DNA from: Prochlorococcus sp. AG-459-N19
Lineage (GTDB): Bacteria; Cyanobacteriota; Cyanobacteriia; PCC-6307; Cyanobiaceae
Direction of reading: 5' to 3'
DNA: 64,000 nt
NCBI GenBank assembly: GCA_003209375.1
Contig: QCRF01000004.1
Span: 33,628 to 97,627 of the forward strand
Every line of letters starts with the position of its first letter. Position 1 is the stretch's first letter. The translations under genes were made by a program, and so were the position numbers. The notes below the pieces were generated by a model. It saw only the letters and a list, made by a program, of their open reading frames with translations, did not search any database and was not told the origin of the DNA. Of the stretch, positions 5,089 through 45,915 are shown in pieces.

Positions 5089-6051
5089 TTGATGATGGAT
5101 TCAAATACATTTGAAAAATGCTTCATTGCAGGTCATAAAGGTATGGTAGGCTCAGCAATATTGAGGAAATTAAAAGAAAATAAAAAATATGAAATAATAA
5201 CAGCCGAAAGATCTGAGCTTGATTTGGTAAATCAAGTACAAGTTTCAGAATTTTTTCAAAGTAATAAACCTTCCATTGTTATTTTGGCTGCTGCTAAGGT
5301 TGGCGGCATCAGGATAAATAGAACAAAGCAGGCAGATTTCCTATATCAAAATCTGATGATTCAAAATAACGTTTTACACTCTGCTGCTAAAAGTGGTGTA
5401 AAAAAAATTTTGTTTTTAGGTAGCTCTTGTATATATCCAAGAGAGTCGCCTCAACCTATCCTTGAAGAATATTTAATGCAGGGTCCTCTAGAACCAACAA
5501 ATGAAGGTTATGCATTAGCCAAAATAAGTGGACTAAAATTAGCTCAATTTTACAGTCATAGCTACGGTATAAAATGTATCTGCCCAATGCCATGTAATCT
5601 CTATGGAACAAATGATAATTTTGATAAAAATAATTCTCATGTGTTAGCGGCCTTAGTTAGAAGATTTGTTGATGCAGTTGAAGAATCTAAGGATTGCGAA
5701 ATGTTATGGGGAACTGGCGATGCAATGAGAGAATTTCTTCATGTTGATGATGCTGCCGATGCTTTTTTATTACTTCTTGAGAAATGGGATTCAAGTGATC
5801 ATGTCAATGTCGGTTCAGGTAAAGATATATCAATTAAAAATCTTGCAAAGAAAGTTGCATATTTTGCAGGATATAAGGGAGATATAAGATGGGAGAATTC
5901 ACCCCAAGAAAATGGGATGCCCCGTAAACTATTAGACGTTACAAAAATCAATAAGTTAGACTTTAAACCAAAAATTTCATTAGATGATGGAATCATTCAA
6001 ATGATTAAAATCTATAAAAACTCAAAAATTATTCATAACAATCAAATTTGA
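5089..6051 (+). CDS. fcl: GDP-L-fucose synthase-like epimerase/reductase (Fcl/WcaG or ColC-like)
   Basis: FIAGHKGMVGSAILRKL, AAAKVGGI, SSCIYP, EGYALAKISG, NSHVLAALVRRF motifs of the GMER family. Confidence 0.85.
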   Translation: MMMDSNTFEKCFIAGHKGMVGSAILRKLKENKKYEIITAERSELDLVNQVQVSEFFQSNKPSIVILAAAKVGGIRINRTKQADFLYQNLMIQNNVLHSAAKSGVKKILFLGSSCIYPRESPQPILEEYLMQGPLEPTNEGYALAKISGLKLAQFYSHSYGIKCICPMPCNLYGTNDNFDKNNSHVLAALVRRFVDAVEESKDCEMLWGTGDAMREFLHVDDAADAFLLLLEKWDSSDHVNVGSGKDISIKNLAKKVAYFAGYKGDIRWENSPQENGMPRKLLDVTKINKLDFKPKISLDDGIIQMIKIYKNSKIIHNNQI

Positions 6052-29757: not shown

Positions 29758-30816
29758 GTGTTACAAACTTACGGAAAATCTGATGTCACCTATGACTGGT
29801 ACGCAGGGAATTCTGGTGTTGTTGGCCGTTCAGGTAAATTCATAGCTGCCCATGCTGCCCATGCAGGCCTAATGATGTTCTGGGCAGGAGCTTTTGGATT
29901 ATTCGAATTGGCTCGTTACGATGCCAGTATTCCGATGGGTGCACAGAAAGCGATTGTTTTGCCTCATCTAGCGGGTATTGGAATTGGTGGCGTTGAAAAT
30001 GGTGTTATTACTGAACCATATGGAATTGTTGTAATTTGCACATTACATCTAATTTTCTCAGCAGTACTGGGTGCTGGGGGATTATTACATTCCAACAAAT
30101 TTGCAGGAGATCTTGGAGACTACCCAGAAAATAGTAAGCCACAAAAATTTGATTTCGAATGGGATGATCCAGATAAATTAACTTTTATTCTTGGTCATCA
30201 TCTTATCTTTCTTGGGCTTGGAGCAATTATGTTCGTTGAATGGGCTCGTATTCATGGAATTTACGATCCAGCAATAGGATCTACAAGACAAGTTATTTAC
30301 AATTTAGATATTGCCGCTATCTGGAATCATCAATTCGATTTTTTAAAAATAGATAGTCTTGAAGATGTTATGGGAGGACATGCTTTCCTAGCTTTCCTTG
30401 AAATAATTGGAGGAGTTTTCCATATTTGTACTAAACAATTTGGAGAATATACAGAATTTAAAGGGAAAGGATTACTTGGAGCTGAGGCAATTTTGTCATA
30501 TTCAGTTGTTGGTGTTTCTTATATGGCTTTTGTTGCTGCTTTTTGGTGTGCTTCAAATACAACCATATATCCAATCGATCTATATGGAGAACCCTTAAAG
30601 CTTCAATTTGAATTCGCTCCTTATTTTACTGATACAGTAGATTTAGGTTCAGGAGCTTATAGCTCAAGAGCTTGGCTTGCTAATACTCATTTTTATTTGG
30701 GTTTCTTTTTCTTACAAGGTCATCTTTGGCACGCACTAAGAGCAATGGGATTTGACTTTAAGAAAATTGGCCAAGCTTTTGACAATATTGAAAATACAAA
30801 AATTACTCAAAATTAA
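29758..30816 (+). CDS. Pcb divinyl-chlorophyll a/b-binding antenna protein (GTG start)
   Basis: LQTYGKSDVTYDWYAGNSGVVGRSGKFIAAHAAHAGLMMFWAG; CP43/IsiA-like six-TM layout without the long luminal loop. Confidence 0.95.
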   Translation: MLQTYGKSDVTYDWYAGNSGVVGRSGKFIAAHAAHAGLMMFWAGAFGLFELARYDASIPMGAQKAIVLPHLAGIGIGGVENGVITEPYGIVVICTLHLIFSAVLGAGGLLHSNKFAGDLGDYPENSKPQKFDFEWDDPDKLTFILGHHLIFLGLGAIMFVEWARIHGIYDPAIGSTRQVIYNLDIAAIWNHQFDFLKIDSLEDVMGGHAFLAFLEIIGGVFHICTKQFGEYTEFKGKGLLGAEAILSYSVVGVSYMAFVAAFWCASNTTIYPIDLYGEPLKLQFEFAPYFTDTVDLGSGAYSSRAWLANTHFYLGFFFLQGHLWHALRAMGFDFKKIGQAFDNIENTKITQN

Positions 30817-38299: not shown

Positions 38300-38361
38300 A
38301 AATTAAAATAATTATATAGTTCAAAAAATTTTCTTTATTATGTGCAAACTTTTAAACAGGC

Positions 38362-38446
38362 GGAGAGGTGGCTGAGTGGTCGAAAGCGAACGACTCGAAA
38401 TCGTTTAATAGGAAACTATTCGTGGGTTCGAATCCCACCCTCTCCG
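38362..38446 (+). tRNA. tRNA-Ser (anticodon CGA)
   Basis: GGAGAGGTGGCTGAGTGGTCGAAAGC... CTCGAAA loop, long variable arm, GGTTCGAATCCCACCCTCTCC. Confidence 0.96.
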
Positions 38447-38711
38447 GATTATTTTTCGTGTCTGACATTGTCTGAAGGATTCTGATAGTTTCACAATATT
38501 TTTAAAAAATAGTATTAGCAAGAGTTTTTTCATTTTCTTCTTAAAAATAGTGTCTCATGGTGTCAGGCAGATTCTGGTAATGTCAGATCATTTTTTCTGA
38601 AAGTGTTGGGAGAAATGTTGGGAGAATTTCCTCCGATTTCTTAAAACCTAGTATCTGGCAGTGTCTGTCAGTGTCTGACAGAAGCAAATCGACTTACACC
38701 CTCTCCGGATT
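38436..38711 (+). repeat. direct repeat of the tRNA-Ser 3' end (38436-38450 and 38697-38711), candidate att scar
   Basis: CACCCTCTCCGGATT present twice, 261 bp apart; imperfect similarity continues (TTTTTcGTGTCT / TTTTTaGTGTCT). Confidence 0.75.
38458..38680 (+). repeat. three clusters of 10-bp-phased decamers (consensus about GTGTCTGACA)
   Basis: 38458: gtgtctgaca ttgtctgaag gattctgata; 38550: gtgtctcatg gtgtcaggca gattctggta atgtcagatc; 38651: gtatctggca gtgtctgtca gtgtctgaca. Confidence 0.7.
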
Positions 38712-38938
38712 TTTTTAGTGTCTCTATGTCAGGTTAATTGAGACATTGTCAAACCTTTTTTTTACAGAAAATGTTGGTGGAAATTTAGGTAGATTGGGTT
38801 TGATTTTTAAAATGAATTTTTTTGATTGATGTTAAAAACTTTTAGGAAATAATTTCTAAAGCAGAATCAACTAATTTTTCCTATATTTGCTCAATTCCAA
38901 AGAAGAGAGTGAAAATAGTTAATAATTAACGATGTTTC

Positions 38939-39341
38939 TTAATTAATTTCTTTTATCCATTTAAATTCTATCTTATTAAATTTGTCTATTTTTTCTTGGA
39001 ATAATTCTTTTTTATTGTATTTTGTTCTTTGATTCTTACACCAATTTTGTAGTTTTTGATCTTAATTAGTTGGAGAAGTATGACCTTTGGTTATGAAAAG
39101 TTTTTTCAATGCTGCATAAGAATCGTCCCATCTTTGTTTTACAGGACCCCAAGCAAAATTTAGTTCCTCAAGAAGTTTGATTTTGTCTTGAGATATATTA
39201 TTTTATATTATGTTGCCTTTGTTTCGCACACCAAACTTCTAAATAACTACTCAATGCTGAAGAAGAAGAATCTTTATTATAAATAAAAAGTTTAAAATTC
39301 CTAGATAGATTATTAATAAACAAAGATAATGACTTGGTCAT
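38939..39341 (-). pseudogene. helicase-associated (HA)-domain protein relic
   Basis: Minus strand: MTKSLSLF...YLEVWCAKQRQHNIK* / frameshift / ISQDKIKLLEELNFAWGPVKQRWDDSYAALKKLFITKGHTSPTN*DQKLQNWCKNQRTKYNKKELFQEKIDKFNKIEFKWIKEIN*. Confidence 0.75.
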
Positions 39342-44532: not shown

Positions 44533-45915
44533 TTAATCTAAATCAGGCATTTCTAGAGCTGGTTCACTCTTTCTGTCGATTCCTTTTTCGAAACCAGCAG
44601 CGGCTGCTCTAGCACGTCCAGCATGCCAAAGATGACCGATGAATGTAAACCATCCTAGGAAGAATTGAGCTGCAGCTAACCATTGTCTTAAGTTAACGAA
44701 GTTAACAGCATTAGGCTCTGTAATGATTCCACCAACAGAGTTGATAGAAGCGTTTGGAGCATGAGTCATATATTCAGCTGCTCTTCTTACCTGCCAAGGC
44801 TGAATATCATTTTGGATTTTCTCAAGGCTCAATCCATTAGGTCCTCTTAGAGGCTCTAACCATGGCCCTCTGAAATCCCAAAATCTCATTGTTTCACCAC
44901 CAAATATAATTTCACCAGTAGGAGATCTCATGAGATACTTACCTAGACCTGTTGGTCCCATTGTTGAACCTACGTTAGCTCCAATTCTTTGATCTCTCAC
45001 AAGGAAAGTAAAGCTTTGAGCCTGTGAAGCTTCAGCATTTGTTGGGCCATAAAATTCTGAAGGGTAAGCAGTATTATTGAACCAGATGAATGTTGAAGCA
45101 ATAAAGCTTGCTACACAAATTCCACCAAGAGCATAACTTAGTAGTCCTTCACCATTCCAAATGAATGCTCTTCTTGCCCATCCAAAAGGTTTTGTGAAAA
45201 TGTGAAATAAACCACCAATAATGGCAGTAATACCAACATAAACATGTCCACCAACAATATCTTCAATAGAGTTAACACCGATTATAGAACCAGCTCCTCC
45301 CCATGGAGATCTGAATAGATATCCAAGGATAACTCTAGGATCTAATGTTGGGCTGACTAGTCTAACTTCCCCACCGCCTGGTGCCCATGTATCATAAGCG
45401 CCACCTACAAACATCCAGTTAAAAACGAAGAAAAGAGCACCGACTCCTAAAACAATTAGGTGATAACCCAATATATTAGTCATCTGATTCTTATCTCTCC
45501 AATCTGTAGAAAAGAATGGGAAGTCTTCTTCAAGTTTTTCAGGACCGGCTAAAGAGTGATAAACACCACCAAATCCTAAAACTGCTGAAGAAACTAAATG
45601 CATTACACCTGCAACAAAGAAGGGATAAACATCAGTAATTTCGCCACCAGGGCCAACTCCAAAACCAAACATTGCTACGTGAGGCATACAAATTAAGCCT
45701 TGTTCCCACATTGGTTTATCAAATGTGAAATGACTTACTTCGAATAGCATCATTGCACCGGCCCAAAAAACTATGAGGCCAGTGTGAGCAATATGAGCTC
45801 CGAGTAAACGGCCAGATAAATTAATTAATCTGGCGTTACCTACGTACCAAGCGTAACCAGTTTCTTCAATACTCTGGTTAGGAGCTCTAAGTAAACTATT
45901 AAAGGGCGTTTCCAC
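44533..45915 (-). CDS. psbC: photosystem II CP43
   Basis: [49 protein letters not shown] start at 45915 preferred over 45942; overlaps psbD. Confidence 0.96.

Follow-up and report, generated by a model that had tools for sequence, protein, structure and literature searches.

The 3' end of tRNA-Ser(CGA) in the window (the whole 64-kb stretch of Prochlorococcus DNA that was analysed) is very probably followed by what is left of two integrative elements, arranged in tandem, lacking an integrase and targeting this tRNA end. What appeared to be a scar can now be read as a history in which two insertions and a single loss of cargo are placed in order. The attachment ends of small restriction-gene islands at tRNA-Ser are hereby defined at base level, in the most abundant photosynthetic genus. 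The features of the locus are as follows, in window positions.

38361..38447, + strand: tRNA-Ser(CGA), the target gene, taken as intact because its Rfam score is 63 bits
38436..38446, + strand: core 1, CACCCTCTCCG, the tRNA 3' end, attL-like
38457..38496, + strand: left end array 1 (CGTGTCTGAC ATTGTCTGAA GGATTCTGAT ...), in 10-bp register; proposed directionality-factor (AlpA/Vis-type) sites, by analogy with Apl
38549..38588, + strand: left end array 2 (AGTGTCTCAT GGTGTCAGGC ...), in 10-bp register, largely inverted relative to array 1
38603..38626, + strand: tandem 12-bp pair GTGTTGGGAGAA ATGTTGGGAGAA, proposed integrase arm-type sites, at the left-end/right-end junction
38650..38679, + strand: right end, three repeats AGTATCTGGC AGTGTCTGTC AGTGTCTGAC in 10-bp register
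38697..38707, + strand: core 2, CACCCTCTCCG, right limit of the cargo-less unit and left limit of the older unit
38708..38782, + strand: left end of the older element in decayed form, with some 90 bp missing between two copies of AGTGTCT
38771-38782, + strand: degenerate 12-bp site ATGTTGGTGGAA, a single site within the decayed left end
38818..38930, - strand: 3' remnant of an HSDR_N cargo gene, frameshifted, 88% identical over 115 nt to the relative L035

Two units behind the tRNA gene

A sequence-only reading of this DNA had reported that the tRNA-Ser tail at 38436, CACCCTCTCCGGATT, recurs exactly at 38697, and we confirmed this duplication with its spacing of 261 bp. Across the whole 64 kb, CACCCTCTCCGGATT is one of two exact 15-mers that recur within 500 bp, the other being the low-complexity ATATTTTAAAAATTA. 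The imperfect similarity described past the tail corresponds to a 28-nt repeat with 86% identity (38428-38455 versus 38689-38716), the second pair of blocks is real, with copies starting at 38591 and 38756, and the description of two diverged tandem units, each headed by a tRNA tail, is correct. The interpretation given to the two tails held in part: they fit a tandem of attachment-type remnants, but not the scar of a clean excision, which is ruled out by the two cores because it would have left a single one. The window also lacks an integrase, as had been stated; the sole PF00589 match of the genome sits on another contig.

The first unit (38436-38707) resembles both ends of the cargo-bearing relative L035. 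Its segment 38556-38595 is left-like and its segment 38626-38695 right-like; the similarity follows the left end to about 38605, is equal to both ends in 38603-38626 and follows the right end beyond. Ends of attL and attR type are thus both present, with cores at 38436 and 38697. At the level of sequence, this comparison shows the first unit to have both ends of a cargo-carrying family and no cargo. In relatives, a set of 12-bp repeats lies at each cargo end, whereas the first unit has a single pair, and we therefore regard it as an element emptied at the 12-bp repeat. Recombination or slippage between the direct 12-bp repeats would have removed the cargo, comparable to the origin of a solo LTR, in which recombination between direct repeats of both ends eliminates the internal region and leaves one copy. 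Unlike in a solo LTR, the repeats here are 12-bp pairs that form part of recombinase attachment ends, not long terminal repeats, and the two do not share ancestry.

The second unit (38697-38930) is shown by its similarity to relatives to comprise a decayed left end and, behind it, the 3' stub of an HSDR_N gene that relatives carry; in L039, the HSDR_N gene terminates at the corresponding position with respect to the left end. This distal unit would have inserted first and been pushed outward as the next element entered at the tRNA. In some relatives (L040, L051, L052, L103 and L106), displaced copies are separated from the tRNA by other insertions there, consistent with newer insertions arriving on the tRNA side. 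Past the HSDR_N stub, a broken reading frame (38950-39220, - strand) presumably resembles a helicase-associated (HA) domain protein.

An insertion hotspot and its element family

Our comparison set comprised 266 genomes of the same genus, 87 of them of good quality. Many resemble single-cell assemblies, as record titles and fragmentation suggest, and the near-complete, few-contig genomes G030 and G031 show the same structures. tRNA-Ser(CGA) is nearly universal among the 266 genomes, and the block that follows it matches in 58 of them (24 of the 87 good-quality genomes). In several relatives, the match is broken into two pieces with 2.5-6 kb between them, while the flanks stay constant, with futA upstream and ferredoxin-cobQ-maf downstream; the site is therefore a hypervariable insertion point. 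The sequence-only reading had taken the locus for a tyrosine-recombinase-type attachment site and proposed a search for strains with an element between the two tails. Such strains exist, with elements of 0.6-6 kb, and P4-type integrases with a matching core occur in other strains. A uniform 261-bp spacing with the block in all relatives, which would have spoken against that reading, does not occur: the block matches in just 58 of the 266 genomes, and core-to-core distances range from 259 to 6052 bp. Across the family, the identity of the element ends is uncorrelated with that of the adjacent futA (r = 0.08); in the pair L043 and L052, the ends are 89% and futA 69% identical. The ends therefore move horizontally.

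Our catalogue of elements sharing these ends holds 28 members, with core-to-core lengths of 259-6052 bp; 19 of them carry internal sequence and span 0.6-6 kb between the cores. Read from the tRNA side, the left end has the core and then repeats in 10-bp register; an AT-rich stretch leads to another array of 10-bp register, after which come tandem 12-bp repeats (GTGTTGGGRGAA); after the cargo, the right end has tandem 12-bp repeats, three repeats in 10-bp register and the core. The core is CACCCTCTCCG, or CACCCCCTCCG at tRNA-Ser(TGA). Spacing is fixed in nearly all 28 elements, the left 12-bp site beginning at a distance of 165-169 bp from the left core and the right sites lying 94 and 82 bp ahead of the right core. 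In each of the three arrays, the 10-bp periodicity was stronger than in any of 300 joint column shuffles (right arm, 0.54 versus 0.25). The 12-bp pair was found in 28 of the 266 genomes, and a reversed-pattern control gave no match in the same set. At the loci examined, all matches of the pair lie at tRNA-Ser and are oriented as the tRNA, and among 85,462 species the pair matched picocyanobacterial records only (Prochlorococcus-titled records plus one Synechococcaceae and one Synechococcus MAG).

The cargo genes sampled include those for HNH_2, HSDR_N, MrcB_N+NOV_C, ResIII-type helicase with HSDR_N, GIY-YIG and EcsC proteins, several of them restriction-type. A search for Phage_integrase (PF00589) at the tRNA-Ser loci of type-a carriers found none. 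Two right-end/core patterns and the 12-bp pair had no match in viral contigs, nor did the window block in a phage collection. Close to cargo-bearing element ends, L035 (3905-4135, - strand), L033 and L034 encode a protein of 73-76 aa that belongs to no known family and is a candidate element-linked factor.

Other end types occur at the same core. In L041, L050 and L096, the cores are preceded by AGTCAAATGGAATT, a further integrase-less end type, and a second one is seen in L040, L052 and L100, with CTTGAGATGTAATT before the cores. One of these two types has ACACGTATAAAA repeats and GTGCC arrays resembling the integrase elements of G104 and G202; the other has GTGTTGGTGGRT repeats. L097 holds a 58-bp micro-remnant (about 5936-5994) with two cores and only fused 10-bp-phased repeats between them.

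Origin of the cargo-less elements

Nine solo (cargo-less) elements of 259-295 bp were found. In a tree of the ends, built with the 12-bp repeats left out, the nine solos require nine changes, and their repeat number varies between one pair, three sites and two pairs, with L040 and L043 differing from each other. The nine changes together with the differing repeat numbers indicate repeated, separate cargo losses. Alternatively, the 260-bp cargo-less unit could itself be mobile, as a MITE-like minimal att cassette moving in trans. Such a cassette might explain why six of the nine solos measure 259-263 bp at both tRNA-Ser(CGA) and tRNA-Ser(TGA), and why the ends of the solos L043 and L052 are about 90% identical when their host futA is only 69% identical. 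However, a fixed solo size is the automatic outcome of fixed end lengths, the solos are scattered on the tree of ends, and differences in repeat number are what separate deletions would give. We therefore consider a mobile cassette unlikely, and less likely than repeated deletion.

A conserved structured ncRNA downstream of the tRNA is a far weaker candidate. The inverted left-end arrays do pair in an RNAalifold consensus, where four pairs change on both sides compared with 1.0 in shuffles, but inverted protein-binding arrays would covary too, and at -12 kcal/mol over 187 columns the consensus structure is weak. Moreover, the block has no Rfam match, is confined to little more than a fifth of the relatives (58/266) and in places stands apart from the tRNA, with other insertions in between, making this explanation very improbable. 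That the tRNA tail and its flank were simply duplicated locally, with no mobile element involved, is barely credible: the units are indeed alike beyond the tail, but relatives hold unrelated cargo between the same ends and as many as six tandem cores, and sister elements carry integrases.

Integrase-bearing sisters and known systems

The remnants of integrative elements that we favour would depend on a recombinase encoded elsewhere. A family of tyrosine recombinases of 413-445 aa is present in 22 of the 266 genomes. Where both boundaries are visible, most integrase elements measure 5-6 kb (up to 9 kb) and lie at tRNA-Ser(CGA), (TGA) or (GCT) with a matching core, so the proposed search for element-borne tyrosine recombinases with this core led to P4-type enzymes in sister elements at tRNA-Ser. 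These elements have the same anatomy with repeats of their own: an 11- or 12-bp tandem pair is placed 82-104 bp before the right core, and the left end contains a repeat related to it. The best-scoring integrases contain the domains Arm-DNA-bind_3, Phage_int_SAM_3 and Phage_integrase; among phage proteins, the P4 integrase is the closest match (29% identity). An AlpA-type regulator adjoins the integrase in G104, G202 and G132, and a serine resolvase is also present in G202 and G132. No integrase-bearing element that we found has exactly the end type seen in the window. In the genome to which the window belongs, 83% complete, neither the 413-445 aa family nor AlpA gave a match, and the carrier G195 has a candidate integrase and AlpA elsewhere in its genome (contig C29).

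In the phage P4 record, tandem 12-bp attP arm repeats are annotated on both sides of the core, and they share TTGGGGG with the Prochlorococcus 12-bp repeat. By this analogy, the 12-bp pairs are probably arm sites of a P4-type integrase. We had also considered replication iterons for these repeats, and dropped them since tandem arm pairs of 12 bp are likewise found in P4. Apl of phage 186 and similar directionality factors recognise direct repeats with a spacing of one helix turn (PMC7498355), and the 10-bp-phased arrays may correspondingly be sites for an AlpA/Vis-type factor. Crossover would occur in the core CACCCTCTCCG. Because the elements are without an integrase of their own, one would have to be supplied in trans, and the P4-type integrase of another tRNA-Ser element would mobilise them. 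A 389-aa Phage_integrase-family protein with a weak PF00589 match, encoded at G000:C3:52398-52826 and in most relatives, could be a resident recombinase.

Among known systems, the window element is best placed as CIME-like. CIMEs are decayed conjugative or mobilizable elements that retain attL and attR (PMC5704250). Likewise, the window elements keep both att ends, have no integrase that we could find (the first unit leaves no room for a transfer gene or any other), stand in tandem at one tRNA gene and have a decayed older neighbour; mobilisation would be in trans. They differ in that the autonomous relatives here are P4-integrase/AlpA elements, mostly of 5-6 kb, and in that a unit can be emptied of its entire cargo at the 12-bp sites. 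This emptying at an arm-site pair, seen nine times, is a variant feature compared with known CIME-like islands.

P4 and its satellites are similar in targeting a tRNA 3' end and in having tandem 12-bp arm sites with the TTGGGGG motif flanking the core, an arrangement present on both core sides in cargo-bearing relatives and reduced to a single pair in the window solo. The autonomous relatives add an integrase with an arm-binding domain and an adjacent small AlpA-type regulator. Nevertheless, the window elements have no integrase or other P4 gene, the target is tRNA-Ser and the sister integrase is only 29% identical; as an integrase is absent from both the window and its own genome, we did not file the element as P4-like. 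Tycheposons are reported to be 4-200 kb islands at Prochlorococcus tRNA genes (PMC10872708), and the likeness lies in cargo-carrying elements at such genes and in islands remodelled by integration. The window shares integration at a tRNA gene with a duplicated 3' end, but a PF00589 search of it found no recombinase gene; with the hallmark genes absent, we did not file the element as a tycheposon.

More speculatively, Prochlorococcus tRNA-Ser genes might act as cassette ports, where integrase-less islands with P4-type ends are inserted serially in trans, arm-site pairs serve as breakpoints for cargo loss or exchange, and empty 260-bp ends are left behind, perhaps to be reloaded. The fixed end coordinates allow a search for islands lacking an integrase and a test of their dependence on the integrases of neighbours. 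Elsewhere in the window, we observed two matches to IsrR, the isiA antisense RNA, at 30160-30331 (- strand) and 45318-45501 (+ strand), the latter near the gathering score (54.2 versus 52 bits).
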